The notes under the pieces are model-generated. The model was not told the origin of the DNA and ran no database searches. It saw nothing but the letters and a program-made list of their open reading frames with translations. The translations under genes and the position numbers were made by a program. Positions 5,096 through 54,200 of a DNA stretch of 64,000 bases are shown piece by piece (the stretch's first letter is position 1; each line of letters begins with the position of its first letter). Source of the DNA: Odiellus spinosus (lineage: Eukaryota; Arthropoda; Arachnida; Opiliones; Phalangiidae); the NCBI GenBank assembly GCA_963920705.1, contig OY987232.1, forward strand, positions 16,059,726-16,123,725. Reading direction: 5' to 3'.

Positions 5096-5664
5096 GGTTC
5101 TACCCCGATTCGCCCAAAACATTTGGCCCAATTCCCATTTCGCCCAATCTCAATTGGCCCAAACTCAATTGGCCCAAACTCAATTGGCCCAAACTCAATT
5201 GGCCCAATCCTAACTGGCCCAATTCCCAATCAGCCCAATTTATTAGGCCCAATTCCCAATCAGCCCAATTTATTCTTATTTCGCCCAATCCACACCCAAG
5301 GCATATGCGAACAAAATCCTCTTGATCGGTTCCTTCGTCCTGTTTAATTATTTCTACCTAACCTAACCTAACCCAACCTAACAATTTTAGGCGAAACGGG
5401 AAAAGGAATTTTAGGTTGAGCGAAATGGGAATAGATAATTCTTTACTAACTGATAAAACGATTGGGCGAAGTGGGATTGGGCGAATTGGGACAAGGAAAT
5501 TTTGGTTTGGGCGAATTGGGACAAGGAAATTTTGGTTTGGGCGAATTGGGAATCGATAATTTTGGGCCAAATGATAATACGTTTGGGTGAAGTAGGATTG
5601 GGCGAAATGGGAATAGATAATTTTGGGCGAAATATTTGGGCGAAATGGGAACAAACCATCAAAC
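5096..5664. mobile_element. F8a foldback with telomere-motif core
   Basis: Left arm made of CCCAATTCCCATTTCGCCC and a 15-bp CAATTGGCCCAAACT run; core CCTAACCTAACCTAACCC at 5357-5382; right arm of complementary words TTGGGCGAATTGGGA. An inverted near-copy lies at 39580-40118. Confidence 0.8.
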
Positions 5665-6434
5665 CTTACCCTAAACTATTATTCTAATTTGTTAATTGCA
5701 AATTAAGGAATAGATTAAGAGTTTTTATTATTACTTTTCAAACTTATTAGATTTTTAATCGAAGTTTATATAATCATCAGATTATGATAATTCGTATTTA
5801 ATCATAAAATAACGATTTAAGCTTTTATACTAATTAGGCTTAGTCGTGCCTTAATGGTGTTGTATACAAAGCTACAGGGTAATTAAAGAAAGGGGATTTC
5901 AAGGTCCTAAAAAGAAAATTAACAGAGAAACAGGCGTCACCACGATTTGAGTATAATAGCCACGAAATATTAAGAAAAGAATTTTCAAAAAAAAAAAAAA
6001 AAAAAAAAAAACACATCGGATGGAAATAATTAAAATTTTTAGTTCTGAAGGAAAGGAAACACTTGGTTTCCTATAAAACGATTTTTACTAACGAAAACAG
6101 GAGAATTTTTGACGGGTTCTCCAAAAAAATGAAAATAAATTGCGTTAATATTTTAAATTAAAGTTAATTAATTAATAAGTTAGGTGACTGTAAAACGAAT
6201 TAGACTACGTTATTGAAGTCATAAATGCCTCCGATTTCGTGAAGAAATAAATATGAACAAAGAAATATACTGTACATAAAAGTGAAAAAAATTAAACTGA
6301 TATTTTTTAACTTTTTATAAATTATTATTAATAACTTAACTATTTATGTGTGTAGGGGCAATTTGCCATAAATTTTATGCCAAAAGGAGTACCTCTAACT
6401 AATCAGAAGACGCTAAAAACGGCCACATTGCGTC
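5665..6434. other. Unassigned stretch with poly-A run
   Basis: AT-rich, A-run at 5988-6010, right inverted end of the 4298-6290 composite; no gene. Confidence 0.5.
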
Positions 6435-6672
6435 CAGGGACGGAAATAAGAAAATTTTCTTATTGGACAAATGTCCAGTAACCCCCCTTAAAAATTCAAA
6501 CGTTATCGGACATTTAACAAAATTACCGGACAAGGCTACATTTCCTGTATTAAAAAATACCTTTTTTATCGGACATTTGTCCAGTGACCCCCTCTTAAAA
6601 ATAAAAAGTTATCGGACATTTTGGCAAATTTATCGGACAATGACCAGTGACTTGTGCTTATTTCCGTCCCTG
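6435..6672. mobile_element. hAT-like MITE (F7) copy 1
   Basis: CAGGGACGGAAATAAG ... CTTATTTCCGTCCCTG, exact 8-bp TSD ATTGCGTC, the size typical of hAT. Internal copies of GGACAAATGTCCAGT-type short palindromes. Confidence 0.88.
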
Positions 6673-6943
6673 ATTGCGTCTCTAATGATAAAATTAAAAA
6701 TATAATCCATAGATATTCTAGATGACAGCCTCTACCCCAATAGCGTGTTGTTGAAATTTAATTTCTACACAAGCGTAAGTGCCATTAGTATTTAAGTAAA
6801 TATTAGGCTTAGCTAGATATCGTTACGTATAACTTGTAAAGGGGGGAAACGCGGTCATTAAGACTTAATTGCACGATGTCGTAATTATATATTTTTGAAA
6901 TTCTCGCGCCTAACTGATGAATGAAAGAATGAATAGTAATTAC
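6673..6943. other. Metalloproteinase intron 3 sequence
   Basis: Sequence downstream of the exon 3 donor; no catalytic exon found in either frame set. Confidence 0.5.
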
Positions 6944-7054
6944 CCTGAAGCGCGTATCGTTTCCTTCGTCTGGCAGAGTCACCCTGTCCTACTTTGTCCC
7001 TGACGCCGCATCGTGGTGTGTTCATCATTTTCACCGTGTCGTCGTCCAAGGATC
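6944..7054 (-). CDS. Mmp1: Metalloproteinase coding exon 3 (cysteine switch and furin site)
   Basis: Acceptor GACAATAG, then GSLDDDTVKMMNTPRCGVRD, KVGQGDSA, RRRKRYALQG, then donor GTAATT. Starts and ends in phase 1. Holds the zinc-chelating Cys of the pro-form and the dibasic processing site just before the catalytic domain. Confidence 0.93.
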
Positions 7055-10000
7055 CTATTGTCAAATTAAACACAAAAGAATATATAAATAAGAAACATCA
7101 AAATGCAATAATTATCCAAATGATATGTTAATTGATTACTGATTGTTGAACATTATAAATTAAAAATAATTCAAAGAAATATTTTTAATATTTCGGGTTT
7201 AACAATTAAAGGCTTGAAGATCAAAGATGTTTTAAAGTTATCCGAAAGATAGGTCTTGATATGATATAAGTAATAAAGTTGTTTAAGAGATATGTCTTGA
7301 TTATGAGTAGAGATATGTATGGAATTTGTCTAAGACATGTTTAAAATTTGACCTAAAAGATGTCTAGAAGTTGCATATAGATATGTCTCGAAGTTGGCTA
7401 TAGATATGTCTCGAAGTTGGCTATATGTCTAGAAGTTGCCTATAGATATGTCTCGATGTTGCCTATAGATATGTTTCAAAGTTGAATATAGATATGTATT
7501 GAAGTTTCCTATAGATATGTATTGAAGTTGCCTACAGATATGTCTTGAAGTTGCCTATAGATATGTTTCAAAGTTGAATATAGATATGTATTGAAGTTGC
7601 CTATAGATATGTATTGAAGTTGCCTACAGATATGTCTTGAAGTTGCCTATAGATATGTCTCGAAGTTTTCTATAGATATGTCTCGAAGTTGCCTATAGAT
7701 ATGTCTCGAAGTTGCCTATAGATATGTCTCGAAGTTGCCTATAGATATGTTTCAAAGTTGCCTATAGATATGTCTTGAAGATGTCTATAGATATGTCTCG
7801 AAATTGCCCTAGGTATGTCTCGAAGTTGCCTACAGATATGTCTTGAAGTTGCCTATAGATATGTCTCGAAGTTGCCTATAGATATGTCTTGAAGTTGCCT
7901 ATAGATATGTCTCGAAATTTCCAATAGATATGTCTTGAAGTTGCCTATAGATATGTCTCGAAGTTGCCTATAGATATGTCTTGAAGTTGCCTATAGATAT
8001 GTCTCGAAATTTCCAATAGATATGTCTTGAAGTTGCCTATAGATATGTCTAGAAGTTGCCTATAGATATGTCTAGAAGTTGCCTATAGATATGTCTCGAA
8101 GTTGCCTATAGATATGTCTCGAAGTTGCCTATAAATATGTCTCGAAGTTGCCTATAGATATGTTTCAAAGTTGCCTATAGATATGTCTCGAAGTTTCCTA
8201 TGAGATATGTCTTGAAGTTTCCTATGAGATATGTCTTGAAGTTTCCTATGAGATATGTCTTGCAGATGCCTAAATGTTTTTTAGAAGATGCCTAATCGAT
8301 GCTTTAAACCAAACCAATCAATAAAACTTCCTATTTTAGGAAACTGCTTTTAATTGAATAAGAAATCTTTATAACTAAGAAAACGTTTTTTTTAGCACGA
8401 CTTACCCGTGACATTAATTCCAGCGAATCTCTGGAAGTCTTTAACAGCGTCAAGCATGGCTTCTTCACTTATCATGGATTCGGAAAAACCTTTGCTTTCA
8501 TTCATGTAACCAAACTTTTGTAAATACATCTGAAAATAAAATAAAACGAAAAAACAGTTAGATATGGACGACATTAAACTATATTTTAATTGTTGAAATT
8601 AATCTTAATTTCAATTATATCTTAACCATGTTAAATAACAAGTTAAAAATACATTTTAATTGATTGTAAATAAATTAAATTTGTCTGTAAATAAATTAAA
8701 TTTGTCTGTACATAAATTAAATTTGTCTGTACATAAATTAAATTTGTCTGTACATAAATTAAATTTGTCTGTACATAAATTAAATTTGTCTGTACATAAA
8801 TTAAATTTGTCTGTACATAAATTAAATTTGTATGTACATAAATTAAATTTGTCTGTACATAAATTAAATTTGTCTGTACATAAATTAAATTTGTCTGTAC
8901 ATAAATTAAATTTGTCTGTACATAAATTAAATTTGTCTGTACATAAATTAAATTTGTCTGTACATAAATTAAATTTGTCTGTACATAAATTAAATTTGTC
9001 TGTACATAAATTAAATTTGTCTGTACATAAATTAAATTTGTCTGTACATAAATTAAATTTGTCTGTACATAAATTAAATTTGTCTGTACATAAATTAAAT
9101 TTGTCTGTACATAAATTAAATTTGTCTGTACATAAATTAAATTTGTCTGTACATAAATTAAATTTGTCTGTACATAAATTAATTCGTGACAATATTTATG
9201 ATTATATATAATTATAACTTTAGAAGTTAATTGGGAATCAACAGCTACCTGCAAGATTAGCTGATATTAACTCGAATATGAAAAATAATAATTTGCCTTA
9301 ACCTCGAAAAAGAACCTTAACCTTCGATGATAATATAATAAAATCATAATTTCTTGTATAATAATCCTTCAAATTAATAATAATCGTAGATAATAGTTTT
9401 AGATAATTAGAATTTTATGTAGAATGACTTAAAACTCCATTTTTTAATGACAAAATGAGCTGTCATGCTCTTTAAACCCTTGGATTTCTCTGAAGACTAT
9501 AATAAAGATATTTAAAGGGAAAGACTCAGTTTCTTAATAACTTGGCTTTTTTCAATGATATTTTAATCTCGGATAAATTTAAGTTAATATAAATCCACAA
9601 ATTATATAAACAGAATCGTATTCAAATGCTGGATACGAATTAGACCCGGAGATAAAATTTTAAGCTCGATTAATAAACAAATCGCGTTTATTCGAACGGA
9701 TAACGCGAAGATAAAAATACGACGTTTCTCGAAATCCGTGTAGAATGAAATATAATAATTCGATTTTTTTCATCTAAATCGAAAGGAACAATTCTAGCTT
9801 CGAGATCTCAATTTTGGGTTAAAATAGACGAAGAAACTCTTTGGTTTCAAATTGTTCGTTATCGGCGAATGAATAACTCTTATCAATTTCCTAAATAACA
9901 ATGAGTACGAATTGTAAGTTTGCCGTTACATTCGGGTATCCGTTAACTCGAATAAGAAGTGGATATTTTAATATCTGATTGACATTCACGATGGTCCTAT

Positions 10001-22000: not shown

Positions 22001-24182
22001 TTAAAATTAATTTAAATAGATTAAATTTGAAAGGAAAATTATCGTAATTAAAACTATAATTAATAAGATCAAATTAAAATTGATTTTAATGAAATAAAAC
22101 TGACCTTAATTAATTTTAATTAATTTAAATTGATTAAATTTTAAAATTATCGTAATTAAAACTTATTAAAATATATCAAATTAAAATTAATTAATTTTAA
22201 CTGAAACTTGTAGAACGTGTAATTAAATTTAATTAAAATTTATATAATATTTCCGGAATTAATTAATTAATTAGTATTTAAATTGGGGATGAATCTACGA
22301 ATCCATAATTATATAGAAGAGTTGAGTCAATTTTTTATTCAATTTCGCTTACTCATGAATGTCTTGTAGTGTAATTAAGCTAGATGTTAATAACTTTGGT
22401 GGAAACTCTAATTAAACTTGTGTTTCACTAACAAGTAAGAATAATTAGATTACTACAGACTAAACAGACAAAGTTGAAAGGTTGACTCATCATACTCTTG
22501 TATTTGAGAGTGAAAGGTACGAAACCAAAAAAAAAATTTAAGGAACCACCCCGGAGGTTCTTACGCAACCTTTATGAGGGTGGGTTCACTTTTAGTTAGT
22601 GTGAAATTGTTCATTCAAGCGTATGACACCCACCATGACTACATGAGGTCATCCCAGGCTAATGATCCCCAAATTATGTATCAATTTAGTCTCATTTACA
22701 ATCAGTGACAATTAGGGGTATTTGAATTTTCTTAGACGTATTTTAAATTTTCTTAGAGGTATTTTAAATTTCCTTAGAGGTATTTTAAATTTTCTTAGAG
22801 GTATTTTAAATTTTCTTAGAGGTATTTTAAATTTCCTGAGAGATATTTTAAATTTTCTTAGAGGTATTTTAAATTTTCTTAGAGGTATTTTAAATTTTCT
22901 TAGAGGTATTTTAAATTTCCTTAGAGGTATTTTAAATTTCCTGAGAGATATTTTAAATTTTCTTAGAGGTATTTTAAATTTTCTTAGAGGTATTTTAAAT
23001 TTCCTTAGAGATATTTTAAATTTCCTTAGAGGCATTTTAAATTTCCTTAGAGGTATTTTAAATTTCCTTAGAGGTATTTTAAATTTCCTGAGAGATATTT
23101 TAAATTTTCTTAGAGGTATTTTAAATTTTCTTAGAGGTATTTTAAATTTTCTTAGAGGTATTTTAAATTTCCTTAGAGATATTTTAAATTTTCTTAGAGG
23201 TATTTTAAATTTTCTTAGAGGTATTTTAAATTTTCTTAGAGGCATTTTAAATTTTCTTAGGGGTATTTTAAATTTTCTTAGAGTTATTTTAAATTATCCT
23301 AGAGGTATTTTAAATTTTCTTAGAGGTATTTTAAATTTTCTTAGAGGTATTTTAAATTTTCTTAGAGGTATTTTTAATTTTCTTAGAGGTGTTTTAAATT
23401 TCCTTAGAGATATTTTAAATTTCCTTAGAGGTATTTTAAATTTTCTTAGAGGTATTTTAAATTTCCTTAGAGGTATTTTAAATTTTCTTAGAGGTATTTT
23501 AAATTTCCTTAGAGGTATTTTAAATTTCCTTAGAGATATTTTACATTTCCTTAGAGGTATTTCAAATTTTCTTAGAGGTAGTTAAAATTTTCGTAGAGGT
23601 AATTTAAATTTTCTTAGAGGTATTTTCAATTTTCTTAGGGGTAATTTAAATTTCCTTAGAGATATTTTAAATTTCCTTAGAGGTATTTCAAATTTCCTTA
23701 GAGGTATTTCAAATTTCCTTAGAGGTATTTCAAATTTTCTTAGAGATATTTTAAATTTCCTTAGAGATATTTTAAATTTCCTTAGAGGTATTTCAAATTT
23801 TCTTAGAGGTATTTTAAATTTTCTTAGATATATTTTCAATTTTCTATAAATTATTTGTCGTATATAAACCCAAGTTAAAAATTTGTTTATTTTACCATGT
23901 AGGGGATATTTCGAGATTCCAAACAAAAATCATTAACCCTAATTACGGTAACTATGGAAATTAAATTACTTATAAAACCCTTCGCAATTAAGCTACAAAT
24001 TTAAATTAATTACAAATAGTAATCAATAAATTTAAATAATAAATATTAATCTAAATTAAATTCAAATATTAAATAACCCTTACCATGGCTTGAATTGCAG
24101 ATTTGCTATCAGCTTGAACGTTAGTCGCACTGAGAATAACAATTAATGCCAATAAAAGGCAAAATACTGAATTAACCACCAT
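6944..24182 (-). CDS. Mmp1: Matrix metalloproteinase, N-terminal part (three coding exons; catalytic exons beyond left edge)
   Basis: Secreted zinc endopeptidase of the matrixin family (M10A), which cuts extracellular matrix. Seen: coding exons 24182-24084, 8529-8406 and 7054-6944 join in frame through GT/AG borders (phases 0 and 1) to a 111-residue N terminus. It has a hydrophobic signal peptide (about residues 1-24), a peptidoglycan-binding-like prodomain (YLQKFGYM ... AMLDAVKDFQRFAGINVTG), the cysteine switch PRCGVRD whose Cys ligates the catalytic zinc in the zymogen, and a furin site RRRKR followed by YALQG. Known: the RYALQG junction is that of insect Mmp1 rather than Mmp2, which is the basis for the symbol. 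The donor after CTTCAGG at 6944 shows the gene continues leftward; I found no HExGHxxGxxH exon in 1-6900. Intron 1 is about 15.5 kb of satellites and MITEs; intron 2 is about 1.35 kb, mostly a 23-bp array. Family assignment is very secure, orthology fairly so. Confidence 0.9.
7200..8290. repeat. 23-bp minisatellite in metalloproteinase intron 2
   Basis: Unit TTGCCTATAGATATGTCTCG plus AAG, about 38-40 copies with decay toward both edges. Confidence 0.95.
8406..8529 (-). CDS. Mmp1: Metalloproteinase coding exon 2 (prodomain)
   Basis: Acceptor TTTTCAG, then 41 codons plus one base, then donor GTAAGT. It encodes the peptidoglycan-binding-like helices: YLQKFGYM at the start, AVKDFQRFAGINVTG at the end. 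Between the 23-bp array (left) and the 21-bp array (right). Confidence 0.92.
8656..9185. repeat. 21-bp minisatellite in metalloproteinase intron 1
   Basis: Unit ATAAATTAAATTTGTCTGTA plus C, about 25 copies, almost perfectly uniform, so recently expanded or homogenised. Because 21 is a multiple of 3, several frames stay open; none is a gene. Confidence 0.97.
9190..9540. other. Unassigned intron sequence
   Basis: AT-rich; nothing recognised. Confidence 0.5.
9541..10030. mobile_element. F9 element, second subtype, ends degraded
   Basis: CTCGGATAAATTTAAGTTAA through TTCGAACGGATAACGCGAAG to GTTATACGAATTCCGA; near-copy of 31207-31754. Confidence 0.78.
10031..10524. other. Unassigned intron sequence
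   Basis: AT-rich; nothing recognised. Confidence 0.5.
10525..10698. mobile_element. F5 right half
   Basis: CCAACTAAGCCTATTTCTC to ATTCTCCAT|TTAA; left half absent. Confidence 0.75.
10699..11139. other. Unassigned intron sequence
   Basis: AT-rich; nothing recognised. Confidence 0.5.
11140..11640. repeat. F12 element, inverted copy with internal direct duplication
   Basis: ATAATCGCCCATTTTGGAAA and CCCCGCAATCTACGTCATCA each occur twice about 205 bp apart. Confidence 0.78.
11641..11770. mobile_element. K element fragment
   Basis: CGATTTGATTCGATTTCTCG, ACTGCTTCGGGAACCAGTTT; matches 61140-61265. Confidence 0.65.
11771..12505. other. Unassigned intron sequence
   Basis: AT-rich with a few GC islands such as CGAAAGGCGGGGAGATGC near 12044; no open frame or repeat ends. 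Confidence 0.5.
12506..12601. mobile_element. K element fragment, inverted
   Basis: TTAA|AGGGACACTATACTGG, then GAAGCAGTTTCGAGAAATCG; abuts F1 copy 3. Confidence 0.65.
12602..12938 (+). mobile_element. F1 MITE copy 3, no TSD
   Basis: Full-length F1. Flanks GTAGTGT and GTTTCAT do not match, suggesting recombination or flank deletion. Lies against a K-family fragment. Confidence 0.93.
13149..13429. mobile_element. F3 MITE copy 1
   Basis: 281 bp, GC-rich relative to its surroundings, termini CAAGGAGGATTAGACAAGG and complement. Exact 7-bp TSD CTCAAGT. Contains inner inverted sequence such as GTTGTCACGTGG/ACGCGACAAC. Confidence 0.93.
13608..13945 (-). mobile_element. F1 MITE copy 4
   Basis: Full-length F1, exact 7-bp TSD ATATTTC. 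Confidence 0.95.
13955..14192. mobile_element. F5 central part
   Basis: AATAGGCTTAGTTGGATTC ... CTAAGCCTATTTTG ... TTTCTAGTTTAATATTTG; directly after F1 copy 4. Confidence 0.75.
14462..14815. mobile_element. F5 palindromic MITE
   Basis: TTAA|AGGGAGAATC start, CTAATCCACCAATAAAACA, GGCTTAGCTGAATTC and its inverted partner; right end lost. Confidence 0.85.
15041..15356. mobile_element. F2 MITE copy 1
   Basis: 316 bp, termini CAAGAATTCATTCAGGTTCC and its near complement ending GGATTCTTG. Exact 7-bp TSD ATAAAAC. Non-coding; internal sequence unrelated to F1. Confidence 0.93.
15479..15821. mobile_element. Element with CAGGGTTGCCAC termini
   Basis: CAGGGTTGCCAC ... GTGGGAACCCTG, subterminal runs of TTCCCTGAC-type repeats. 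Same design as the CAGGGTGACCACT element but different sequence. TSD unclear. The TTCCCTGAC words recur in the array at 16660-17265. Confidence 0.7.
15822..16655. other. Unassigned intron sequence
   Basis: Very AT-rich, TAATTAATT words; no gene seen. Confidence 0.5.
16660..17265. repeat. Minisatellite of TTCAAATTCCCTGAC words
   Basis: Units of about 35 bp (CCTTTTGGGGCAATTTTCAA, then ATTCCCTGA) in a partly alternating 70-bp order. Confidence 0.9.
17266..17710. repeat. 20-bp minisatellite ATTCTAGAAAAATCTGGAAA
   Basis: About 20 irregular copies directly joined to the preceding array. Words similar to the array at 62870-63490. Confidence 0.9.
17711..18348. other. Unassigned intron sequence
   Basis: No gene; an F11-like end TTAA|AGGGAAACTTGGATG occurs at about 18332. 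Confidence 0.5.
18349..18890. mobile_element. F9 element copy
   Basis: TGAGCTTGGAATTCATATAA ... CGATTCTGAGCTCT; highly similar to 1667-2208. Confidence 0.8.
19151..19487 (-). mobile_element. F1 MITE copy 5
   Basis: Full-length F1, exact 7-bp TSD ATAAAAT. Confidence 0.95.
19558..19897. mobile_element. F5 copy
   Basis: TTAA|ATGGAGAATGCAAGC to GGTTGCATTCTCCCTTTG; both palindrome halves present. Confidence 0.82.
20034..20247. mobile_element. hAT-like MITE (F7) copy 2
   Basis: CAGGGATGGAAATAAG ... CTTATTTCCGTTCCTG with the same TTGTCCAGT words; TSD no longer visible. Confidence 0.8.
20248..20592. other. Unassigned intron sequence
   Basis: Nothing recognised. Confidence 0.5.
20593..20965. mobile_element. 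F6 large hairpin element, copy 1
   Basis: Near-perfect inverted repeat: CGATGCTAAGCCTTGGCTGC ... GCAGCCAAGGCTTAGCATCG, centre ACGCGTATTTTAAAAATACGCGT. Left end truncated, right end CTTTCATTCTCCCT. Confidence 0.88.
20966..21314. other. Unassigned intron sequence
   Basis: Nothing recognised. Confidence 0.5.
21315..21850. mobile_element. F4 element, right end missing, with nested F2
   Basis: Left terminal CAAAAGTCCATAAAAGTAAAC to CAGCAAAGG, then F2, then the internal CGGGCCGCGC block; the right terminal repeat is absent. Confidence 0.8.
21379..21694. mobile_element. F2 MITE copy 2, nested in F4
   Basis: 316 bp, inverted relative to copy 1, exact 7-bp TSD GTTTTAC. It splits the F4 element at 21315-21850. 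Confidence 0.94.
21851..22719. other. Unassigned intron sequence
   Basis: AT-rich with many AATTAAAATT words to 22300, then a more balanced 400 bp without open frames. Confidence 0.5.
22720..23840. repeat. 21-bp minisatellite in metalloproteinase intron 1
   Basis: Unit AGGTATTTTAAATTTTCTTA plus G, about 53 copies, with AGAT, TTCC and TTTC variants. Long open frames on both strands follow from the 21-bp period and are not genes. Confidence 0.97.
24084..24182 (-). CDS. Mmp1: Metalloproteinase coding exon 1 (signal peptide)
   Basis: ATG at 24182-24180 opens 33 codons, MVVNSVFCLLLALIVILS then ATNVQADSKSAIQAM, followed by donor GTAAGG. The hydrophobic core and the VQA-D site look like a signal peptide. 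The exon ends in phase 0 and joins exon 2 as SAIQAM|MYLQKFGY, the usual Mmp spacing. No promoter element could be assigned upstream. Confidence 0.82.
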
Positions 24183-26095: not shown

Positions 26096-26910
26096 TAGTT
26101 GGGATCTTATTGTTTCAAGTTTGAGAATGTCTTGGTCAAGTTTTGAGAATGTTTTGGTAAAGTTTAAAGAATGTTTAGGTGAAGTTTTGATAATGTTTAG
26201 GTGAAGTTTTGATAATTTTTGGTGAAGTTTTGAGAATGTTTTGGTTAAGTTTTGAGAATGTGTTGGTAAAGTTTTGAGAATGTGTTGGTAAAGTTTTGTG
26301 AATGTGTTGGTAAAGTTTTGAGATTGTTTTTTTAAGTTTTGAGAATGTTTTGGTAAAGTTTTATGAATGGTTTGGTAAAGTTTTGAGAATGGTTTGATAA
26401 AGATTCGAGAATGTTTTGGTAAAGTTTTGAGAATGTTTTGGTAAAGTTTTGAGAATGTTTTGGTAAAGTTTTGAGAATGTTTTGGTAAAGTTTTGAGAAT
26501 GTTTTGGTAAAGTTTTGAGAATGTTTTGGTAAAGTTTTGAGAATGTTTTGGTAAAATTTGGAGTACGTTTTAGTAATGTTTTGGTAAAGTTTTGAGGATG
26601 TGTTGGTAAAGTTTTGAGAATGTTTTGGTAAAGTTTTGAGAATGTTTTGGTAAAGTTTTGAGATTGTTTTGGTAAAGTTTTATGAATGGTTTGGTAAAGT
26701 TTTGAGAATGGTTTGATAAAGATTCGAGAATGTTTTGGTAAAGTTTTGAGAATGATTGGTCAAGTTTTGAGAATGATTTGGTGAAGTTTTGAGAATAATT
26801 TGGTCAAGTTTTGAGAATGATTTGGTCAAGTTTTGAGAATGTTTTGGTTAAGTTTTGAGAATGTTTTGGTAAAGTTTAGAGAATAATTTGGTCAAGTTTT
26901 GAGAATCCTT
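26096..26910. repeat. 22-bp minisatellite
   Basis: Unit GTTTTGGTAAAGTTTTGAGA plus AT, about 36 copies. Confidence 0.95.
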
Positions 26911-27640: not shown

Positions 27641-27685
27641 AATATATTAAAATTATGGATTTTAAACCACAGCATATGGTGATAT

Positions 27686-38208: not shown

Positions 38209-41200
38209 CTGCCAGCAACAGAAAGAAATATAGGGGATTATGAATGTGGTGTGATTCTTTATCTACACATTTCCATCCCGGACGCCGCCTTTCAATTTTG
38301 TACTGTCATTTTTATCCCAAACAGATCAGACTAGCCATCGAAGGCCGAATAATAATTTTAATCAAAAATCTATCAATTTATTCCAGTAAAGTAAACAACG
38401 CCCCGAAGCTTAATATTATCAGCAAAGGTCGAGGTTACTGTACCAGAGATTCTGATTCGACACACTGTGCATTCTGTGTAAAGGCGAATGCACACAGACT
38501 TATTTTCACGCTCGTGCGTGAAAATAGGTCTGTGAGAATCGTGCTTAAATATTGAAATCAAAAGCGCCACTCTGAGGAGAAATACAATAGTTAGGGGGGG
38601 GGGGAGACAATAGAACTAAGCGCGGCCCGCCTAAATTCCGTCCCTCTCTCCCGACTCAATATGTCTAGGAATATCCAAATCAATCGAGCCAGACAGGGTT
38701 GGTAACTTTTGTGGCTATTTTTAAGTGATGGGATATCACGTAAAAATGGACATTTGCTGATATCAGAAGCCGATGAAACCCTCCTTTGAAGTCTATTACT
38801 CCCTGGTCTTGTCTATCCCTCTCTGTATGGGTTAGTTTCAAAAATCGCGATTCGTACGCCTCCTAACGGTAGATATTTTCGGAGCGGGAGTTCGTCGAGC
38901 GAATATCTCTAGCAGCCTTGGAGTTCGTCAAAAAAAACGTCGTCGTTTGTGGAGAGAGAGAATTTCCAATTTTCCGTAGACAGGGGGTATGAAGTAGGAC
39001 CCCTCCGATCTCGTAAAATTGGGAATTTTACCCATACAGAGAGGCGCGCTATATATGGAACATTGGAGTAGTAGACTTCAAAGGAGGGTTTCATCGGCTT
39101 CTGGTATTACTTGATTGTACAAGTAATACAACGCTAGAAAAGGTATCCAAGAGTGGATACCAATATAAGGTTTTCATTATCACCTTTGATTGATTAGTCG
39201 CTTCAAATTGGGCGTAATGTTAGCGGATATAACGTTGCCTTGACACAACGTTTCAAACAATTCTCGTCCATAGTGCAGCCGTATTTTAGTAGGGTTACCG
39301 TGAAGACAAAAATATTCCAAATGATCGGTAGTTTCGATGCACACGCCACGTCCCTTCAATAAAACATGGCCGATATTTTGTCCAACTGGCAAAGGATAAC
39401 GCTTCCAGCGTTTCTGAAACTCTCGATACAAGTTCGGTTTGTTGCGCTTCAAAATAAAACAAAAGCAGAAAACTTTTGGAATTGAAGGGGTTGCCTACAG
39501 CAAGAAGGATCAGACTTCCTGATCCTTCTTGCCTACAGATTTTTGACAATAATTATTATCAAAGGCAAAAAAAATTAGGTTTGTTCCCATTTCGCCCAAA
39601 ATTATCTATTCCCATTTCGCCCAATCCTACTACACCCAAACGTATTATCATTTGGCCCAAAATTATCGATTCCCAATTCGCCCAAACCAAAATTTCCTTG
39701 TCCCAATTCGCCCAATCCCACTTCGCCCAATCGTTTTATCAGTTAGTAAAGAATTATCTATTCCCATTTCGCTCAACCTAAAATTCCTTTTCCCGTTTCG
39801 CCTAAAATTGTTAGGTTGGGTTAGGTTAGGTTAGGTTAGGTAGAAATAATTAAACAGGACGAAGGAACCGATCAAGAGGATTTTGTTCGCATATGCCTTG
39901 GGTGTGGATTGGGCGAAATAAGAATAAATTGGGCTGATTGGGAATTGGGAATAATAAATTGGGCTGATTGGGAATTGGGCCAGTTGGGATTGGGCCAGTT
40001 AGGATTGGGTCAGTTAGGATTGGGCCAATTGAGTTTGGGCCAATTGAGTTTGGGCCAATTGAGATTGGGCGAAATGGGAATTGGGCCAAATGTTTTGGGC
40101 GAATCGGGGTAGAACCGCTAATTACACTAAGGTAACGGCCCGTTGCGGACTTTGGGCTTAATTCATTGATATGGAATTTCGGATGTTTCAAAATATCCTC
40201 CAGAGTGTGTATATTGCAATCGAAGTCAACCGTGAGTTTGGCTGACATATTCGCCTTGAAGATTTCCACCAAAAGAAAGCAAGTCAGAGCCCAGCTGCAA
40301 ACGAGGATCTTCTCCATGACGTCACTCTTGAATGCCACGGATGGAAGATATTTCAATGAGAAATTCCAGTACTTAGAGAGCCGACGTTGCAGAAACAAAA
40401 GCGGAGGACGCGAGTTGAACAGCGCCACGAAGAGACAAATCAAAAGCCAAACCTATACCATCAATAATTTAAGTCATTCACCAGATGGACGAAATTAATA
40501 CACCACTTTGCTCTTCCACTGTGCGCATGCCCGCGCTCGAAACGCTTACTAGTTGCGAAAAAAAACGTTCACTTGGTGAGGCGCGCGCAGTATCCCGCGT
40601 AATACCCCATGTAGGTTTTTTTTCCTGCCATTTTCACCAAGTGAAAGTTCGCCCTATGCCGCTATGGCGCCCCAAGTAATGGCTAAATGGTGTAGTGTAT
40701 TTGGTTTGGAAACCCTTTCATTAGAGGGATTTGAAAAACTTAGACGATCGAAGAATGAACTATAGGCTTGTGCCCCAAGATTATTCGCTATCATAGTTGC
40801 CCAATAGAGATCATCCCAAGAAGGTCTCGATAAATTATAGAAAAGATGTCGTGTATATTATATCGGTGTTTTACGCGTAAACTCGAAGATGTCGTCACAA
40901 CAGAGCCTAATATTCGAGACCCGTTACCGCCTACAGCGTGACTACCAGCTTCCGCGAGAGGCGGGATACTGGGGAAAGAGGTAAGAGAGAGTTCGATAGA
41001 CTGGGAAATCAATCATTGCCAAGCAATCCTTACCCCCGGAAAAACAGGGATCCCTATTATGAAAATCAGTGCCATCTCGTGTTTTCCATCGTACTAAATA
41101 ACCTTTTACTACCGCCTTAAAGTAGACGTTAGAAAATGCTGCCTATTGTTGGAAAACGTCTATTTAATTTAAAGGGAGCCAGTAATTAATCGACTTATAG

Positions 41201-43369: not shown

Positions 43370-44215
43370 CTATTAAATTCGATTAATCTGCTTATTAAGT
43401 TCGATTAATTTGCCTATTAAGTTCGATTAACCTGTCTATTATGATCGATTAATCTGCCTATTAAATTCGATTAATCTGCCTATTAAGTTCGATTAATTTG
43501 CCTATTAAGTTCGATTAATTTGCCTATTAAGATCGATTAACCTGTCTATTAAGATCGATTAATCTGCCTATTAAGATCGATTAATCTGCCTATTAAGTTC
43601 GATTAATTTGCCTATTAAGTTCGATTAATTTGCCTATTAAGTTCGATTAATCTGCTTATTAAATTTGATTAATTTGCCTATTAAGTTCGATTAATTTGCC
43701 TATTAAGTTAGATTAATTTGCCTATTAAGATCGATTAATCTGCCTATTAAGTTCGATTAATTTGCCTATTAAGTTCGATTAATTTGCCTATTAAGTTCGA
43801 TTAATCTGCCTATTAAGATCGATTAATCTGCCCATTAAAATCGATTAATCTGCCTATTAAGATCGATTAATCTGCCTATTAAGATCGATTAATTTGCCTA
43901 TTAAGTTCGATTAATTTGCCTATTAAGTTCGATTAATCTGCCTATTAAGATCGATTAATCTGCCTATTAAGATAGATTAATCTGCCTATTAAGATCGATT
44001 AATCTGCCTATTAAGTTCGATTAATTTGCCTATTAAGTTCGATTAATTTGCCTATTAAGATCGATTAATCTGCCTATTAAATTCGATTAATCCGCCTTTT
44101 AAGATCGATTAATCTGCCTATTAAAATCGATTAACCTGTCTATTAAGATCGATTAATCCGCCGATTAAATTCAATTAACCTGTCTATTAAATTCGATCGA
44201 AATTTCTTAAAAATT
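43370..44215. repeat. 22-bp minisatellite
   Basis: Unit GATTAATTTGCCTATTAAGT plus TC, about 37 copies with GTTC/GATC and TTTG/TCTG variants. Confidence 0.96.
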
Positions 44216-44661
44216 CAATCGAATAGTAAATTAAAACAATCTATTAACTCCGATCATCTGGTATGATCAAATTTAATAAAAAATATTATATTTAACACTT
44301 AATCAAATACGTTTATATTTGAATAGCAAAATATTTTGAACTTACTTTTATCGCTAGAGCTCTCAAAGTGACGTTAACTAATTGGTTCATTTTTTTACTG
44401 TAAGTTTGTATAAAGATTTCTCCGTTTTCTGAGGTTTCTCATAAAAAGGGTTGTCTCTCAGAACGGCGGCTTTTTAAATTAGAAAAACTGGCCTAATCTT
44501 ACCTAATCTAATTCTAATCCGCACTCCCGATAATACTGTTTTGTACAAACACCTACATGGCAACGCGTTTAATAACTGCGTACCGAATTATGGATCGTTT
44601 CGTTAGCGTTGTAGCCTGAAGAAATAAACGCTTCTAAAAAGTAACTGAACATTAGTCAGTT
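44216..44661. other. Unassigned stretch
   Basis: Nothing recognised. Confidence 0.5.
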
Positions 44662-47245: not shown

Positions 47246-47359
47246 ATTTTATGGATAAGGTTCTGAAACGAAATATTAAATACTGACCAAGCTTTAAAAG
47301 TGAATGACAAACAAATTATTTTTAGTTAAGGTTTGATTAAACTTTCTGAGAAATTACAA

Positions 47360-47510
47360 ATTCATGGAGATCATGAACTCCCCAAATTATGACTAGCGAC
47401 CAATGACATTGATCGATGGCAATTATATGGAGAATGCAGAATCTCCATGAATCCAGCTAAACCTATTTTCGGGGTAAGTTTTAAATTTATTTCTAGTTTA
47501 ATATTTGTTC
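47360..47510. mobile_element. F5 fragment
   Basis: ATTCATGGAGATCATGAACTC, then ATCTCCATGAATCCAGCTAA and TTCTAGTTTAATATTTG. Confidence 0.7.
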
Positions 47511-47814
47511 AACAAATCAGAAGGAAAAGTTGGAAAGACATCGTCATTTGTTTCTGATTTCATCCGTGATTGATCCAGAGGGTTAACAATTACTCGTAAA
47601 GAAACCTCAACCCGTGTCAGTCGGAAATGGACCCAGACAATCGACCTAATCTATCCGTATATTTTCAACTGGTATTAAGCTAAGCCTTTTCAATATTAAT
47701 TATTATTAAGATACTTAATTAACGAAATGATAACCGCAATAAAAACCTGACTATCAACCTGAGGTGATTACTAGAACTAGGATAGGCTGATATCAGAACA
47801 AGATTGCCTACACG

Positions 47815-48955
47815 AAAATCACTTCTAGATCTCGAAAAATCACTTCTAGAGCTCGAAAAATCACTGCAAGATCTCGAAAAATCACCTCTAGATCTCGAAA
47901 ATCACCTCTAGATCTCGAAAATCACCTCTAGATCTCGAAAATCACTTCAAGATCTCGAAAATCACTTCAAGATCTCGAAAATCACTTCTAGATCTCGAAA
48001 ATCACTTCTAGATCTCGAAAATCACTTCTAGATCTCGAAAATCACTTCAAGATCTCGAAAATCACTTCTAGATCTCGAAAAATCACTTCAAGATCTCGAA
48101 AAATCACTTCTAGATCTCGAAAATCACTTCTAGATCTCGAAAATCACTAGAAGATCTCGAAAATCACTCCAAGATCTCGAAAATCACTTCTAGATCTCGA
48201 AAATCACTTCAAGATCTCGAAAAATCACTTCTAGATCTCGAAAATCACTTCTAGATCTCGAAAATCACTTCAAGATCTCGAAAATCACTTCAAGATCTCG
48301 AAAATCACTTAAAGATCTCGAAAATAACTTCTAGATCTCGAAAATCACTTCTAGATCTCGAAAATCACTTGAAGATCTCGAAAATCACTCCAAGATCTCG
48401 AAAATCACTTCTAGATCTCGAAAATCACTTCAAGATCTCGAAAATCACTTCTAGATCTCGAAAATCACTTCTAGATCTCGAAAAATCACTTCAAGATCTC
48501 GAAAAATCACTTCGATCTCGAAAAATCACTGCTAGATCTCGAAAATCTCTTCTAGATCTCGAAAATCACCTCTAGATCTCGAAAATCACCTCTAGATCTC
48601 GAAAATCACTTCTAGATCTCGAAAATCACTTCTAGATCTCGAAAATCACTTCAAGATCTCGAAAATCACTCCAAGATCTCGAAAATCACTTCTAGATCTC
48701 GAAAATCACTTCTAGATCTCGAAAATCACATAGGTCTCGAAAATCACTTCTAGATCTCGAAAAATCACTTCTAGATCTCGAAAATCACTTCAAGATCTCG
48801 AAAATCACTTCTAGATCTCGAAAATCACTTCTAGATCTCGAAAATCACTTCTAGATCTCGAAAATCACCTCTAGATCTCGAAAAATCACTTCTAGATCTC
48901 GAAAATCACTTCAAGATCTCGAAAAATCACTTGAAGATCTCGAAAATCATTCCCA
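47815..48955. repeat. 20-bp minisatellite with AGATCT in most units
   Basis: Unit AAAATCACTTCTAGATCTCG, about 57 copies; TCTAGA/TCAAGA/CCTAGA variants are interspersed. Confidence 0.97.
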
Positions 48956-49638
48956 AAATCGCAAAATCACTCCCAAAATTACTAAAGAAATATAGAGAAC
49001 TCCCAAAATCAAATTCTTCAATGAAAAACTAATTCGTGATTTCAAAACCCCCTACAACTTTTTGCATATGTCTGACCATGGATTAAATAACCAAAGGTTA
49101 AATATATTTAAATCCAGTTTCCCTCGAAATGCGGTTGTCATTTTCTAAGTTTAAGCCGAGCTGTTCAAGTCGAATAATCAAAATACTACTTTATTTAACT
49201 ACATATCTGTTTAAAAATAGAAAAATGATAGAAGAACGAAAGATCTGTACCAGAAGATTTTGGAAAATTTCAGGTTCGATATAAAATCTTATTTCATTTA
49301 CAGTTAATTACGACTTGGAATCGGATAACACATATTACCTTCTGTTATTTATATTTTTTCATATAATTTAAATTTTCGGAGTCTTTAGGCATCGCCAAAG
49401 TTTTCAATTTTGGGCAGTAAACCAGGCGAACTTTTAATAAGCATTGAAACTACGCTTATATTTAGCCAAAAGTCAATAACTTTATTATTTAAAAGTAAAC
49501 AACGCCCCGTTTACTTCATACACCAACATTTAACCAATCACAGCCGACTCTAACACTATCATTTCTGTTTTCAAAACAGAGTTCAACCTTCGAATTCATT
49601 TCGAAGTGTATGTAAATTCTTTTAAATTAAAATTATAT
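48956..49638. other. Unassigned stretch
   Basis: An F4 terminal fragment at 49474-49520; otherwise nothing recognised. Confidence 0.5.
49474..49520. mobile_element. F4 terminal fragment
   Basis: AAAAGTCAATAACTTTATTA then AAAGTAAACAACGCCCCG only. Confidence 0.65.
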
Positions 49639-49974
49639 CAGAAGCCGATGAAACCCTCCTTTGAAGTCTATTACTCCCGGGTCTTGTCTATCCCTCTCTG
49701 TATGGGTTATTCTCAAAAGGCGCGATCCGTACGCCTCCTAACGGTAGATATTTTCGGAGCGGGAGTTCGTCCAGCGAATATCTCTAGCAGCCTTGGAGTT
49801 CGTCCAAAAACGTCGTCGTTTGTGGAGAGAGAGAATTTCCAATTTTCCGTAGACAGGGGGGATGAAGTAGGACCCCTTCTAACTAGTAAAATTGGGAATT
49901 TTACCCATACAGAGAGGAGCGCTATATGGAACATTGGAGTAGTAGACTTCAAAGGAGGGTTTCATCGGCTTCTG
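49639..49974 (+). mobile_element. F1 MITE copy 18
   Basis: Full-length F1, exact 7-bp TSD ATTATAT. Confidence 0.95.
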
Positions 49975-50000
49975 ATTATATTTATCGTGAATTCGTTTAA

Positions 50001-50276
50001 GTGAGAATGCAAAATAACAACAAGTTTTTATATCGATTTTAAAACTTACCCGGAAAATAGGCTTAGCTGGATTCATGGAGATCCTGAATTTCTTCGCGCT
50101 GATAGGTCAAAGACCAATCGAATGTTATTGGAAGTCTCGTGGAGATCTCGCCTTAACGACGAGCCTTTGCTCATTGGTCCCTGACCCTTCAATGCGAAGA
50201 AATTCAGGATCTCCATGAATTCAGCTAAGCCTATTCTCAAGTTTTAAGTCACTTGTAGTTAGGTTGCATTCTCCAT
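50001..50276. mobile_element. F5 copy
   Basis: TTAA before GTGAGAATGCAAAAT, after CATTCTCCAT; starts 26 bp past F1 copy 18. Confidence 0.8.
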
Positions 50277-50291
50277 TTAAATCGCTCTTAA

Positions 50292-50607
50292 AGGGATACG
50301 TGACCGGAAATAAACCCTAATTAAATTCTGAAGAAGAGAAGTAGTTTGGACTGTAATTCCCTGCCTAGAGAACCCCATTAAGCATGGGCAAAGAAACGAT
50401 GAATCCAGGACATGACTCTAGAGTCTACTAAAAGAAACAGGCTACGTCATCACCGTGCCGTGATGACGCAAAGCTATGGCGTTTCGGGACCAAAGTGAAG
50501 CCGATGACGCCACACGTTGTACGTTGTTTGTTAGGTTAACAGAGAAGAGTCATGTCCTGGATGCAGTAAGTAAGGAGCTCGTGCAGGCCTGGAATGTAAA
50601 TCTCCCT
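50292..50607. mobile_element. TTAA-type palindromic element upstream of IR 2
   Basis: TTAA|AGGGATACGTG ... AATCTCCCT|TTAA, with inner inverted pair ATGAATCCAGGACATGACTC / GAGTCATGTCCTGGATGC. Possibly displaced or replaced the 5' part of IR 2. Confidence 0.7.
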
Positions 50608-50713
50608 TTAAAAAAAAAATATACGCCCAACACTTTTGTCCGATCGGTTGCGTATCCATTTAAAAGAAAGTCATTTAAGCCCCGAATTAAATGTAAAATT
50701 ATTTTTTTTTCAG

Positions 50714-50896
50714 CCAGAGGGATGCTATTACTTAGCTTACGTAAAATATTTCAATGGGTTTTTTAAAATTATTAGACGTGAAGCTAACTTTACCGTTTTG
50801 GCGCCGATTCATGGGTGGCAACCCGTCCATTATTTCACTTTAAATCCCCCGCTGGTGTGGACACATTCCAATTCAATCGTTCAAATTGACATTCAG
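50714..50896 (+). CDS. IR 2 exon: S1 stretch
   Basis: Acceptor of T-tract plus CAG, 61 codons from PEGCYYLAYVKYF to NSIVQIDIQ, donor GTAAAA. The frame is open upstream to about 50608 and reads plausibly (RLRIHLKESHLSPELNV), so the exon may start earlier, just after a TTAA-type MITE. Confidence 0.68.
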
Positions 50897-53800
50897 GTAA
50901 AACTCGTCCCTAGGTAGCATTTTTTGAAACTGGATTAATTGGACGAGGCTCTAATCTTTGTTTCTCTGTCCCGCAGTCCACGATATGTTTCTCACTGCTG
51001 ATGCTTATGTCAGCCGCCACTATTTACTTCTCGACGACATGCCTACGTCGACAGTCCCCGGGTATAACAGGGGTTTTGAAAATTCTCTGGGATTTTTTCG
51101 CTTCATTATACTTCGAACGTAAGATTTAAATATATATTCCACGTTAAGTCTAGTTCCCACTTGGCGAAACTGGTATTTTTATTCCTTTAACGAACGGAGA
51201 ACCTTCTTTAATACTATGCCTATCTGTAGGAAAAAAAAGGCGGTGCCGGTACCGATTTCAAAAATATCGTTAGATGTCGCTTTCTTGAGGATAAAAAAAG
51301 CGGGAAATTCAAAAACACAGGGGGAAAATTCAAAAATAGGTACGAATGTTAGGTTAATAATCGAGAATAAATTAATGGGGATTTATTTTATTAACTAAAC
51401 GATGTTTTAAAATATTTACATTTAAATCAAAACGTAAATTTAAATCAAGATCTCTATATTATCACCTAGATGTCGCTAGGAGTTCTACGATCTTACTTCT
51501 ATAGAGCCTTATCTAATTGGCTCTTGGCGACGCGAGACTCGCGATTGGCTATTCATTACGTAATACCCAGACAGATTCCTCAGGAAAGTGACATCTATCG
51601 CGGACAAATTGCAAATTGAAAATGTCAAATTTTAGCTGGCATTTCGTGGCCTAGTATTAGAGAAGGCAGTTCTTAGTGTACCTTTCTACTCATTTCAGAG
51701 ATGCCCTATGATTTGAATATATTATCCATTCGTCTGGTTATTTGTTTCTGGCTATTGGGCACTACCATATTGTACTACGAAGTCAACGGCTTCTTTAAAG
51801 GGAAACTATCAGTCAAGGAATACGGCGGCGTCGAATGTGAAGAAGACATTGATAGGCTAGGCTACCGGTGGACTCAGAAATTACCTGTACGAATAAAAAG
51901 GGCTACCGAGTTACGTCGAAGCCCCGGAATATGTTTTTAAGAACTTGGTTATTTCTCTAGTCAGGGTAGAAAAAACTGGGTTTTTCCGGAAAAGACCAGC
52001 CTACCCGGCCCGTATTTTAATAGGTTTTAAAAAATTAATTTTTAGTAAAAATTATAGTGATGATTTTTTTTTTTCTTATATAACAGAGCAAGATTCAAGT
52101 TTGTACCCGTCTGCAAATTAAACGTTCTTTTATTTTCAGGCATCTGAATATTTTACGGAAAGGAAAATAAGTAAGATTACTGAGAAGACAAATAAGTTTA
52201 AGTGATTAAACCACGAAATATGGCCAAATATCAACCATCAGCTAATCGGGAATCAGAGAAAGAAAATATTTCAACGCTGCGCTATGGAGAAAGATCTCTA
52301 TCCATACCCGCTATGTCGTCGTCAAACCGCTGGTTGATTTTAGCGCCATCTTTGAGTCGGGGGTAATACGTAGCTTTGAAAGCACCAACCCCTTTCCAGT
52401 ATCGGTTTAATTTTAGGGTTTAGAATCGATTGGTATATATTTTTTGTCTAATTTATAGTAGAGAGATTAAAAATAGCCTCGCGAGGCCGCCAGCGCCGAG
52501 ATCCAAGAGTCACTAAGAGTAAACGTTGGAGGGCTGCCACCTCGTAGAAGAGAATTAGCTGGACTAAATCCCAATGATCATGCGCGTCTATATATATAAA
52601 TGAATTCCCACATTCCGTGATATTTGGCGCTTCCCTCGTGGTCGAATGGTTGAGGTATTTATTCGATGTTCGCGAATAGTTGGTAATTAATATTATATAC
52701 TTCGTTTAATGTAGAGAACAGAACAAGATTCATGACAACCAAAACGACCTGGTTTCTTTTTTCCAAGTTTCTAAAGGCTAACCTTATTTACGTTTCGAAA
52801 TTATCAATTTCCGATCATATTGAATATATCCCAATATTCCTGGGAATTAAGGAGAATTCAAGATGGATGAAGGGCAACTACGATCCCCAAGTACACGAAA
52901 CCATCAAGCTCTGGTATGCGGGATTAAAACAAAACACGTCGAAAAATTGAACTCGGTCTGCGTCCGCTTGCGCAGTTTCCCACTTGCGCAGTTTCCCATT
53001 TGCGCATTTTCCCACTTGCGCAGTTTCCCATTTGCGCATTTTCCTACTTGCGCAGTTTCCCATTTGTGCATTTTCCCACTTGCGCAGTTTCCCATTTGTG
53101 CATTTTCCCACTTGCGCAGTTTCCCATTTGCGCATTTTCCCACTTGCGCAGTTTCCCATTTGCGCATTTTCCCACTTGCGCAGTTTCCCATTTGCGCATT
53201 TTCCCACTTGCGCAGTAGCCATTTGCGCGGTTTTCCATTTGCGCAGTTTGCCATTCGAGCTGTCCACAAGAGGGACAGGCTAGTTCGAGTGATTAACTAA
53301 CCTAACGTAACCTAACATAACCTGCAAATGAACACTGCGCAAATGAAAAACGCGCAAATGGAAACTGCGGAAATGGAAACCTGCGGAAATGGAAAACTGC
53401 GCAAATGAAAAACTGCGCTAAAGGAAATGCGCAAAAGGGAACTGCGCAATTGGAACCTTACCTTCAACTCGACTCGGGCGACCTTCGCTGATAATTTTAA
53501 GCTACAGGGCGTTTTTTACTTTTATGGAATGAAGTGTTAAACTTTTGGTATCATTGATTTTCCCCGAACAGGGCGCTACGATTGTACGAAGGATCAACTG
53601 GAAAAAATGAGGGTACTAAAGAAGCGGATTATCAAAAGAATTGGAAGAGATTTGATACCAATCAGAAATTATTCACCGCCTACGAGATGGCCGACCTGAT
53701 ATATCCCTTTAAATCATACGGCTATGGTATGGCGATCGCAATCGTTTGCAAATTGCTCGAAACCTTATTGGTACTTTACAATAATCGTAACCGAAACTAA
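50714..53800 (+). CDS. Divergent ionotropic receptor (IR) 2, S1 fragment through C terminus
   Basis: Membrane receptor of the IR family. Exons 50714-50896, 50977-51118, 51699-51886 (or -51867), 52717-52913 and 53572-53800. Order: shortened S1 stretch (NFTVLAPIHGWQPVHYF), TM1 (TICFSLLMLMSAATIYF), pore (LKILWDFFASLYFEQ), M3 helix SIRLVICFWLLGTTILYY then GFFKGKLSV, S2 with RFMTTKTTWFLFSKFL and LSISDHIEYIPIFLGIKENS, last TM YGYGMAIAIVCKLLETLLVL, end NNRNRN and TAA. Introns before TM1 (phase 0) and before the last exon (phase 2) match IR 1. S1 between NFT and TM1 is only about 40 residues and no start-coding exon was found, so the 5' part is missing, unrecognised or lost. The exon 3/4 junction is ambiguous: GTACGA with acceptor TAGAG (phase 0) or GTGGAC with AACAG (phase 2). 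Confidence 0.8.
50977..51118 (+). CDS. IR 2 exon: TM1 and pore
   Basis: Acceptor CTCTGTCCCGCAG, 47 codons plus one base, donor GTAAGA. Encodes TICFSLLMLMSAATIYF and LKILWDFFASLYFE. Confidence 0.83.
51196..51575. mobile_element. F10-related element in IR 2 intron
   Basis: Reverse complement of 41530-42262 without the F1 insert; lies between the TM1 and M3 exons of IR 2. Confidence 0.78.
51699..51886 (+). CDS. IR 2 exon: M3 helix and start of S2
   Basis: Acceptor CTACTCATTTCAG, then AG completing a Gln codon, MPYDLNILSIRLVICFWLLG, GFFKGKLSV, VECEEDIDRLGYRW. Donor is either GTACGA after 51886 or GTGGAC after 51867; the in-frame stop at 51938-51940 lies beyond both. Confidence 0.8.
51887..52716. 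other. IR 2 intron between M3 and S2 exons
   Basis: No known repeat of this window except the tRNA-like patch near 52632; moderately GC-rich around 52480-52560. Confidence 0.45.
52632..52695 (+). other. tRNA-like (possible SINE head) fragment
   Basis: TGGTCGAATGGTTGAGG resembles a tRNA A box and TTCGCGAATAG about 30 bp on resembles a B box. No full cloverleaf can be drawn. It lies just before the acceptor of an IR 2 exon. Speculative. Confidence 0.2.
52717..52913 (+). CDS. IR 2 exon: S2 lobe
   Basis: Acceptors GTAG, GTAGAG and AACAG compete at 52714-52721; GTAGAG fits the phase 0 donor upstream. Encodes NRTRFMTTKTTW, KLSISDHIEYIPIFLG, HETIKL. Donor GTATGC after CTCTG gives phase 2, completing a Trp codon with the next exon. 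Confidence 0.78.
52960..53458. mobile_element. F8b foldback with telomere-like core, in last IR 2 intron
   Basis: Left arm: 32-bp unit GCGCAGTTTCCCATTT / GCGCATTTTCCCACTT repeated about eight times. Core CTAACCTAACGTAACCTAAC at 53297-53322. Right arm: complementary words AACTGCGCAAATGGAA. Confidence 0.8.
53486..53547. mobile_element. F4 terminal fragment in last IR 2 intron
   Basis: TTCGCTGATAATTTTAAGC, GGGCGTTTTTTACTTTTATG, ending AAACTTTTG, 24 bp before the last IR 2 exon. Confidence 0.65.
53572..53800 (+). CDS. IR 2 last exon: third TM helix and stop
   Basis: Acceptor CCCCGAACAG, one base then 75 codons and TAA. Reads ALRLYEGSTG, NWKRFDTNQKLFTAYEMADL, YGYGMAIAIVCKLLETLLVL, NNRNRN. It aligns with TLRFWETG ... 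of IR 1 with the same intron phase. Confidence 0.82.
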
Positions 53801-53816
53801 AATCGATAAATATGCC

Positions 53817-54200
53817 AAACGGTCATATCCCATACGACCGAATTCCCATTCGACCGAACGATAATATAGCCAAGTTCATATTAAAAATAGCCAACTGGCG
53901 GGTTTCGATTGAATGGGATTTCTTCCTATGGAATCAAAACTTTCTTAATGTATATTATATCAATGTTACCACAAGTAAATCATCCCCAAGAATATAAGAC
54001 GACATACTCAGAGACTCTTCTAATTAGGTTAGGTTAGGTTAGGTTAGGTTGTGACCTACTCTTCAAAACCGGAGAAATAGAGTTTATTCAGTCCAATGGG
54101 ACTGTCCCATTGGACCGAATCCAAAATCCGCCAAAGTGCGGGTTTTTCGGTTGAATGGGAATGGGTTCGGTTGAATGGGAATTCGGTCGTATGGGAGACA
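53817..54200. mobile_element. F8c foldback with telomere-motif core, 3' of IR 2
   Basis: Left arm CATACGACCGAATTCCC, core (TTAGG)5-6 at 54024-54050, right arm GGGAATTCGGTCGTATG. Words differ from F8a and F8b but the design is the same. Confidence 0.78.

Follow-up and report, generated by a model that had tools for sequence, protein, structure and literature searches.

In root-knot nematodes, the Mutator/Foldback (Phantom) element Tm1 has composite inverted arms made of 13–15-bp tandem words and is flanked by target-site duplications (TSDs) of 8–10 bp; one copy is reported to have a transposase with FLYWCH and MULE domains, next to many smaller derivatives (PMC3169594). The elements described here, the F8 lineage, follow the same plan as Tm1, whereas the word sequences differ and one Tm1 group has a histone hairpin (PMC3169594). 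The Phantom family of MULEs (group 20) occurs in arthropods and other invertebrates and is listed with TSDs of 8–10 bp where given, terminal inverted repeats (TIRs) of 18–613 bp and FLYWCH domains in some members; in aphids a mini-satellite follows the transposase open reading frame (ORF), whereas in the F8 lineage a telomere unit precedes it (PMC6446971). Galileo, of the P superfamily, likewise has long and internally repetitive arms, whose words are described as binding sites for the THAP domain, so that it would work like the F8 lineage if the F8 words are transposase binding sites; Galileo uses a P-type transposase with THAP, whereas FLYWCH/MULE genes lie beside the F8 words (PMC3688188). 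Tetris of Drosophila virilis, assigned to Mutator by inference, is also a non-autonomous foldback with repeated arms and TSDs of 8–10 bp, and differs in its internal repeats of ~220 bp (PMC4079207). The terms TTAGG and telomer have no occurrence in the texts of the Tm1 paper (PMC3169594) and the Phantom survey (PMC6446971), nor does TTAGG occur in those on Galileo (PMC3688188) and Tetris (PMC4079207). In the literature searched, mostly at the level of search listings, no Mutator or foldback element with TTAGG was recognised.

The window analysed here is a 64-kb stretch (C8:16059726-16123725) of a 443-Mb genome. TTAGG is a true telomeric repeat in this genome: on C1 (35433943 bases; the places listed are those of C1), arrays of at least 30 units start at 35430304, which leaves 3.6 kb to the contig end. 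Insects too have TTAGG runs at internal chromosome sites, and these interstitial telomeric sequences are commonly put down to fusion or repair; in the present genome, by contrast, the sampled runs are mostly parts of transposon-like elements. Within the window, (TTAGG)3 with up to two mismatches has 19 matches against 0.14 expected from shuffles: 14 inside four foldback elements, four in a degenerate CTAAT array (4675-4994) and one at 44492. Comparison with genome copies fixed the ends and TSDs of all four foldbacks and confirms them as real elements (Table 1).

Table 1. Foldback elements of the window, with their target-site duplications and TTAGG cores (window coordinates).
Feature	Position	Strand	Description
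Left TSD, F8a copy 1	5088..5095	.	ATCAAACC
F8a copy 1	5096..5657	+	Non-autonomous foldback; ends GGTTCTACCCC / GGTTTGTTCCC; flush ends common to the 29 genome copies with both ends located
TTAGG core, F8a copy 1	5357..5381	-	
Right TSD, F8a copy 1	5658..5665	.	ATCAAACC; 8-bp pair exact
F8a copy 2	39578..40116	-	Opposite orientation; TSD decayed, 5/8
TTAGG core, F8a copy 2	39811..39840	+	
F8b TSD, 8 bp	52947-52954 / 53463-53470		TTGAACTC/TTCAACTC, 7/8
F8b foldback	52955..53462	+	Ends GGTCTGCGTCC / GGTAAGGTTCC
Degenerate TTAGG core, F8b	53296..53320	-	
F8c TSD, 9 bp	53812-53820 / 54204-54212		ATGCCAAAC/ATCCCAAAC, 8/9
F8c foldback	53821..54203	+	Ends GGTCATATCCC / GCTTGTCTCCC
TTAGG core, F8c	54024..54053	+	5 perfect units

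The TTAGG run of every element is flanked on both sides by inverted arms of short tandem words. Local inverted-arm scores are 69 and 67 for F8a copies 1 and 2, 123 for F8b and 59 for F8c, and all exceed the maxima of 200 dinucleotide shuffles for each element (35, 36, 40 and 30 in the same order). Arm identity is 67% over 178 aligned columns and 68% over 147 in the two F8a copies, 79% over 135 in F8b and 97% over 32 in F8c. The plan that the sequence-only reading had described, long inverted arms of tandem words around a TTAGG middle, is thus borne out in all four elements.

The window holds several other repeats. A degenerate CTAACCCTAATCTAAT array (4640-5080) adjoins the left end of F8a copy 1, which may have inserted into it. 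An ORF on the minus strand (39850-40452) runs into F8a copy 2 and has a weak match to ligand-gated ion channels (PF00060, E 6e-4, under the curated cut-off). Further long inverted repeats lie at 3144-3499 / 3864-4219 and 55041-61903 (some of them multicopy, with arms that reach 356 nt and are 93-98% complementary), and satellites with units of 20-23 bp at 7360-8272, 22712-23845, 26120-26906, 43370-44197 and 47813-48949.

F8a, F8b and F8c are dispersed transposon families. A first pass, in which 40 candidate places were scored per family, gave 928, 990 and 661 candidate genome places, respectively. The exact words occur on the two strands 990 and 997 times for F8a, 300 and 229 times for F8b and 229 and 223 times for F8c, and the reversed-pattern control has no match in any of the three; roughly equal counts on both strands are expected of inverted arms. 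For F8a, both ends were located in 29 of 30 loci, and the 8-bp flanks are identical in 12 of these 29 and differ by at most one mismatch in 19, compared with 0 and 4 of 812 mismatched pairs. The mismatches between paired F8a TSDs (loci L009-L038) concentrate at the last three positions, which match in 16, 19 and 23 of 29 pairs compared with 27-28 elsewhere, and in the right copy these positions often read GG[TC]. For F8c, the window copy was compared with 23 loci, and both ends were located in 22 of these 24 sequences, 19 of them with distinct flanks; at 9 bp the flanks match exactly in 6 of 19 and with at most one mismatch in 10, and none of 342 mismatched pairs matches at either level. The genome copies of F8b mostly end in GGTTTGCGTCC / GGTAAGGTTCC, and TSDs of 8-9 bp are readable in several of them (for instance ACCAATATG in L040). 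The TTAGG run varies among copies: at least three perfect units are present in 25 of 29 F8a copies (two in all 29) and in 8 of 22 F8c copies (two in 20), and the longest perfect run ranges from 2 to 8 units in F8a and from 1 to 5 in F8c.

The association between TTAGG and foldback arms was also followed from the TTAGG side. An unselected sample comprised the first 23 TTAGG sites of C1 in listed order (L001, L005, L007 and L092-L111), omitting L091 because it had earlier been fetched as an F8c copy. An inverted match scoring at least 49 across the core was present at 18 of the 23 sites and in 12 of 114 windows without TTAGG (Fisher p ~1e-10). Three of these sites score through other sequence, L092 and L107 through repeats outside their own elements and L096 through A+T-rich sequence; without them the count is 15 of 23 (p ~1e-7). 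TTAGG runs that mostly lack inverted arms, the outcome that would have spoken against the proposed architecture, were therefore not what the sampled stretch contained. By the matches listed and the arm sequences, seven sites belong to the F8a group, one has F8b words, one F8c-type words, three TCCCAAATGATCGAC words and two CCAATGGACCGAC words, and four are copies of a 140-bp element with TGATCGA words, in which 8-9-bp TSDs are readable and exact in three of the four. L093 and L096 form a further group, L007 and L101 are singletons with arms, and L108 has neither arms nor a family. The three groups represented by L093/L096, L007 and L101 lack TTCCCATT words and are unplaced in the lineage.

Within the same stretch of C1, an exact F8a word lies within 600 bp of 13 of the 52 TTAGG sites (2,000 circular shifts: mean 0.43, maximum 4), and 14 of the 18 F8a word clusters have a TTAGG run within 600 bp. 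This stretch is rich in TTAGG, and the genome mean is lower. An initial estimate of abundance from C1 was set aside as too high because of this density and because, of 14,497 exact (TTAGG)3 matches genome-wide, 8,282 lie in runs of at least 30 units; by extrapolation, interstitial TTAGG sites number at most ~3,200. A de novo scan of the 23 sites for TIRs with TSDs was noisy, with 7 of 23 sites at a level reached by 6% of mismatched pairs and 4 of 23 at the 2.8% level. A stricter scan for end motifs found pairs in 4 of 24 loci and missed the ends of L112, a transposase-bearing copy described below.

The arms of the families had been taken for unrelated sequences, which does not hold on closer comparison: they share the TTCCCATT word core and have similar ends. 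Read inward from either end, TTCCCA, TCCCAT and CCCATT are common to 9 of 14 arm sets, and in 200 mononucleotide shuffles of the arms no 6-mer is common to more than four sets; because the sets were picked by hand and are not independent (they include two ends of one element and two copies of one family), this sharing is a description more than a test. The ends can be written roughly as GSTNNNNNYCC, as in GGTTCTACCCC, GGTTTGTTCCC, GGTCTACCCCC, GGTATGTCCCC, GGTCATATCCC, GCTTGTCTCCC, GGTATCGTCCC and GCTGTCCTCCC, and those of transposase-bearing copies are of the same kind (GGTATATACCC / GCTTCTCGACC and GGTATACTCCC / GCTCGCCTCCC). An exception is GATTTGGGTCG, at the second end of the element with TGATCGA words, which departs from this pattern.

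A MULE search gave 72 matches. The copy L112, on C13, contains a FLYWCH ORF (PF04500, 5.7e-6) and a MULE ORF (PF10551, 1.6e-9) separated by one stop. Inverted arms built of TCCCATT-GACCGAA words enclose the two ORFs, and (TTAGG)3 occupies 1153-1167, between the left arm and the coding sequence. Its ends lie at 649 and 3287 and its 9-bp TSD matches at 7 of 9 positions; an empty site for the insertion is present at C1:9824204-9824363, 96% identical to the joined flanks over all 160 bases. A search of the genome with the L112 protein gave 99 matches, and identity to the best full relatives is 50-63%. A relative on C18 (55% amino acid identity) has both word arms (83% over 114 bp). An imperfect TTAGG run that includes two perfect units separates an arm from the MULE match; the copy is rearranged, with a partial duplication, and what was read of it covers the arms, the run and the MULE match. 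In a relative on C12 (52%), the FLYWCH ORF (PF04500, 3.9e-5) begins at 966 of L116 and (CCTAA)3 ends at 750, 215 bp before the ATG; its MULE part is known from the search matches, the right word arm is in L117, and the piece read excludes the left arm.

The fourth locus, on C1 at 9.375 Mb, carries different words. Its MULE match (C1:9375225, 36% amino acid identity), known as a search match only, lies ~1 kb from an exact F8b word, and L118 is an F8b-type word arm. The place of a TTAGG run was predicted there from the first loci before the corresponding 321-bp piece was fetched, and the piece holds (CCTAA)3, in transposase sense; the estimated chance probability of such a run is ~0.2-0.5%. A TTAGG run thus lies upstream of the MULE coding match in all four lineage loci read, out of 99 matches; its distance to the start of FLYWCH is readable in two of them, at about 215 and 290 bp. 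F8c-like words accompany it in both arms of L112 and C18 and in the right arm of C12, and F8b words at C1:9.375 Mb. The run has the same sense as the transposase in three loci and the opposite sense in C12, and is short in all of these copies, with 2-3 perfect units. The transposases read are not intact, since a stop separates the L112 ORFs and one stop interrupts each of the C18 and C12 matches. F8a words were not found beside a transposase in any of the loci read, which are an unsystematic set.

Other candidates lie outside this group. The long F8c copies L069-L071 were considered as autonomous elements and rejected: at E 1e-3 nothing in them matches the transposase proteins of L112, and on visual inspection their ORFs resemble fragments of other nested elements. 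L069 (C5:2059200-2064650) is a 5-kb F8c copy with nested repeats and 23 TTAGG/CCTAA units, whose host sequence resembles, by eye, a copia-type pol gene. A CCTCTTTAGACGAGGCGTAATTA-like motif in L114, L071 and L107 adjoins a TTAGG run once and elsewhere forms an inverted pair, and is possibly another small element. L113 (C1:8688400-8692400), a different MULE locus outside the 99 matches, lacks all of six word types tried, and the 4 kb read contain neither inverted arms nor a TTAGG run; it has a MULE-type ORF with long in-frame minisatellites (SENEEPVRVVG repeats) and is distinct from the foldback lineage.

The link between the two kinds of element is seen in L105, a TTAGG foldback of the unselected sample. 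L105 is 97.8% identical over 273 bp to the 3' arm and flank of the C12 element. The match stops at ...TTTGAAAG and is followed by a TTAGG run and TTATACCTTGGAAATACCC, both of which precede the transposase gene in the C12 element (two mismatches in a 40-base alignment); the comparison covers the C12 3' arm and flank and the TTAGG side, the C12 left arm being outside the pieces read. By this alignment, L105 is an internal-deletion derivative of a C12-type element, with its junction at the TTAGG run.

FLYWCH and MULE domains, TSDs of 8-10 bp and word arms in both transposase-bearing and dependent copies mark the lineage as a probable Phantom-type Mutator foldback. The sequence-only reading had offered an undescribed transposon type as one possible origin, of which the transposon part stands; the plan itself matches Mutator/Foldback (Phantom) elements such as Tm1. 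The new feature here is a conserved telomere repeat within this known kind of transposon. Very probably, the F8 elements are non-autonomous members of diverged families of one MULE lineage (Phantom/foldback type), with the TTAGG run inherited from the region before the transposase gene. The shared words and ends, the transposase loci with TTAGG and the L105 derivative argue for common descent with internal deletion, which needs no telomere capture.

Under common descent, the arms, as arrays of ~15-16-bp words, would by analogy with Galileo most likely be binding sites for the transposase of each family. Words and transposase probably diverged together, so that the families would look different and yet keep the TTCCCATT core and similar ends. 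Insertion produces the 8- or 9-bp target duplication seen at the copies. Interrupted gap repair is the usual route to internal-deletion derivatives. In transposase-bearing relatives, where the transposase gene is separated from the 5' arm by the TTAGG run, such repair after excision would probably drop the gene and leave the arms and the run. This origin of a foldback with a TTAGG core is documented in L105 and presumably applies to the other elements. Transposition would then scatter the telomere-like run. The window copies have no match to the FLYWCH/MULE transposase proteins of L112, and would have been mobilised by transposases of this type.

Independent acquisition of the run, a rival built on the telomere-repeat capture offered in the sequence-only reading, would have TTAGG added by telomerase or captured at breaks separately in each family, followed by arm duplication. 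TTAGG is truly telomeric in this genome, the L105 junction lies inside a TTAGG run and the orientation of the run relative to the transposase is inconstant, all of which would suit such an origin. Against it, the run is already present at the place of the junction in the element from which L105 derives, so that capture is unneeded in this one readable case, and the run precedes the MULE match in every lineage locus read. Moreover, interstitial repeats left by break repair would be TTAGG at a repaired break without transposon ends, whereas each run of the four window foldbacks is internal to an element whose ends recur in other copies, and three of these elements have TSDs matching at 7 of 8 positions or better. 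Capture is therefore improbable, and as the only origin of the runs it was rejected. Still less credible, and very unlikely in our judgement, is that the families converged independently on arms around a TTAGG core, the view expressed at the outset. Foldback arms are said to have arisen more than once, in Galileo and in Mutator types (PMC3169594, PMC4079207), whereas in this genome a word core is common to 9 of 14 hand-chosen arm sets, compared with a shuffle maximum of 4, the ends are similar and the same FLYWCH/MULE type of transposase lies beside both F8c-like and F8b words.

Common descent is compatible with more than one role for the run. TTAGG may be neutral, a functionless microsatellite created by slippage in an ancestral copy and carried along since, which we consider quite possible though somewhat short of an even chance: the unit number varies among copies and the runs are imperfect, one of them inverted, whereas the run precedes transposases that share only 36-55% protein identity, amid non-coding sequence that is mostly unalignable. 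Its retention beside diverged transposases suggests a function in cis, for instance as a promoter box to which a TTAGG-binding protein of the host attaches. The reversed orientation in C12 and the short runs count against a fixed function, and slippage could renew the run. Because the runs are short in transposase copies and only 8 of 22 F8c copies have at least three units, selection on the run is unproven. A further proposal, tentative and on balance doubtful, is that the lineage keeps a TTAGG box before its transposase so that a host protein drives or protects it, that its derivatives account for most interstitial telomere repeats and that telomere and transposon compete for the protein.

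The usual interpretation of interstitial telomere repeats, on which karyotype studies draw, is that they mark past fusions or repaired breaks. Since most of the sampled runs are the cargo of transposon-like elements, this reading of karyotypes would change for such genomes. The presence of several word families in one genome provides material on the joint divergence of a transposase and its binding site, and the telomere unit upstream of diverged transposase genes offers a testable case of a transposon using a host factor that binds telomere repeats.
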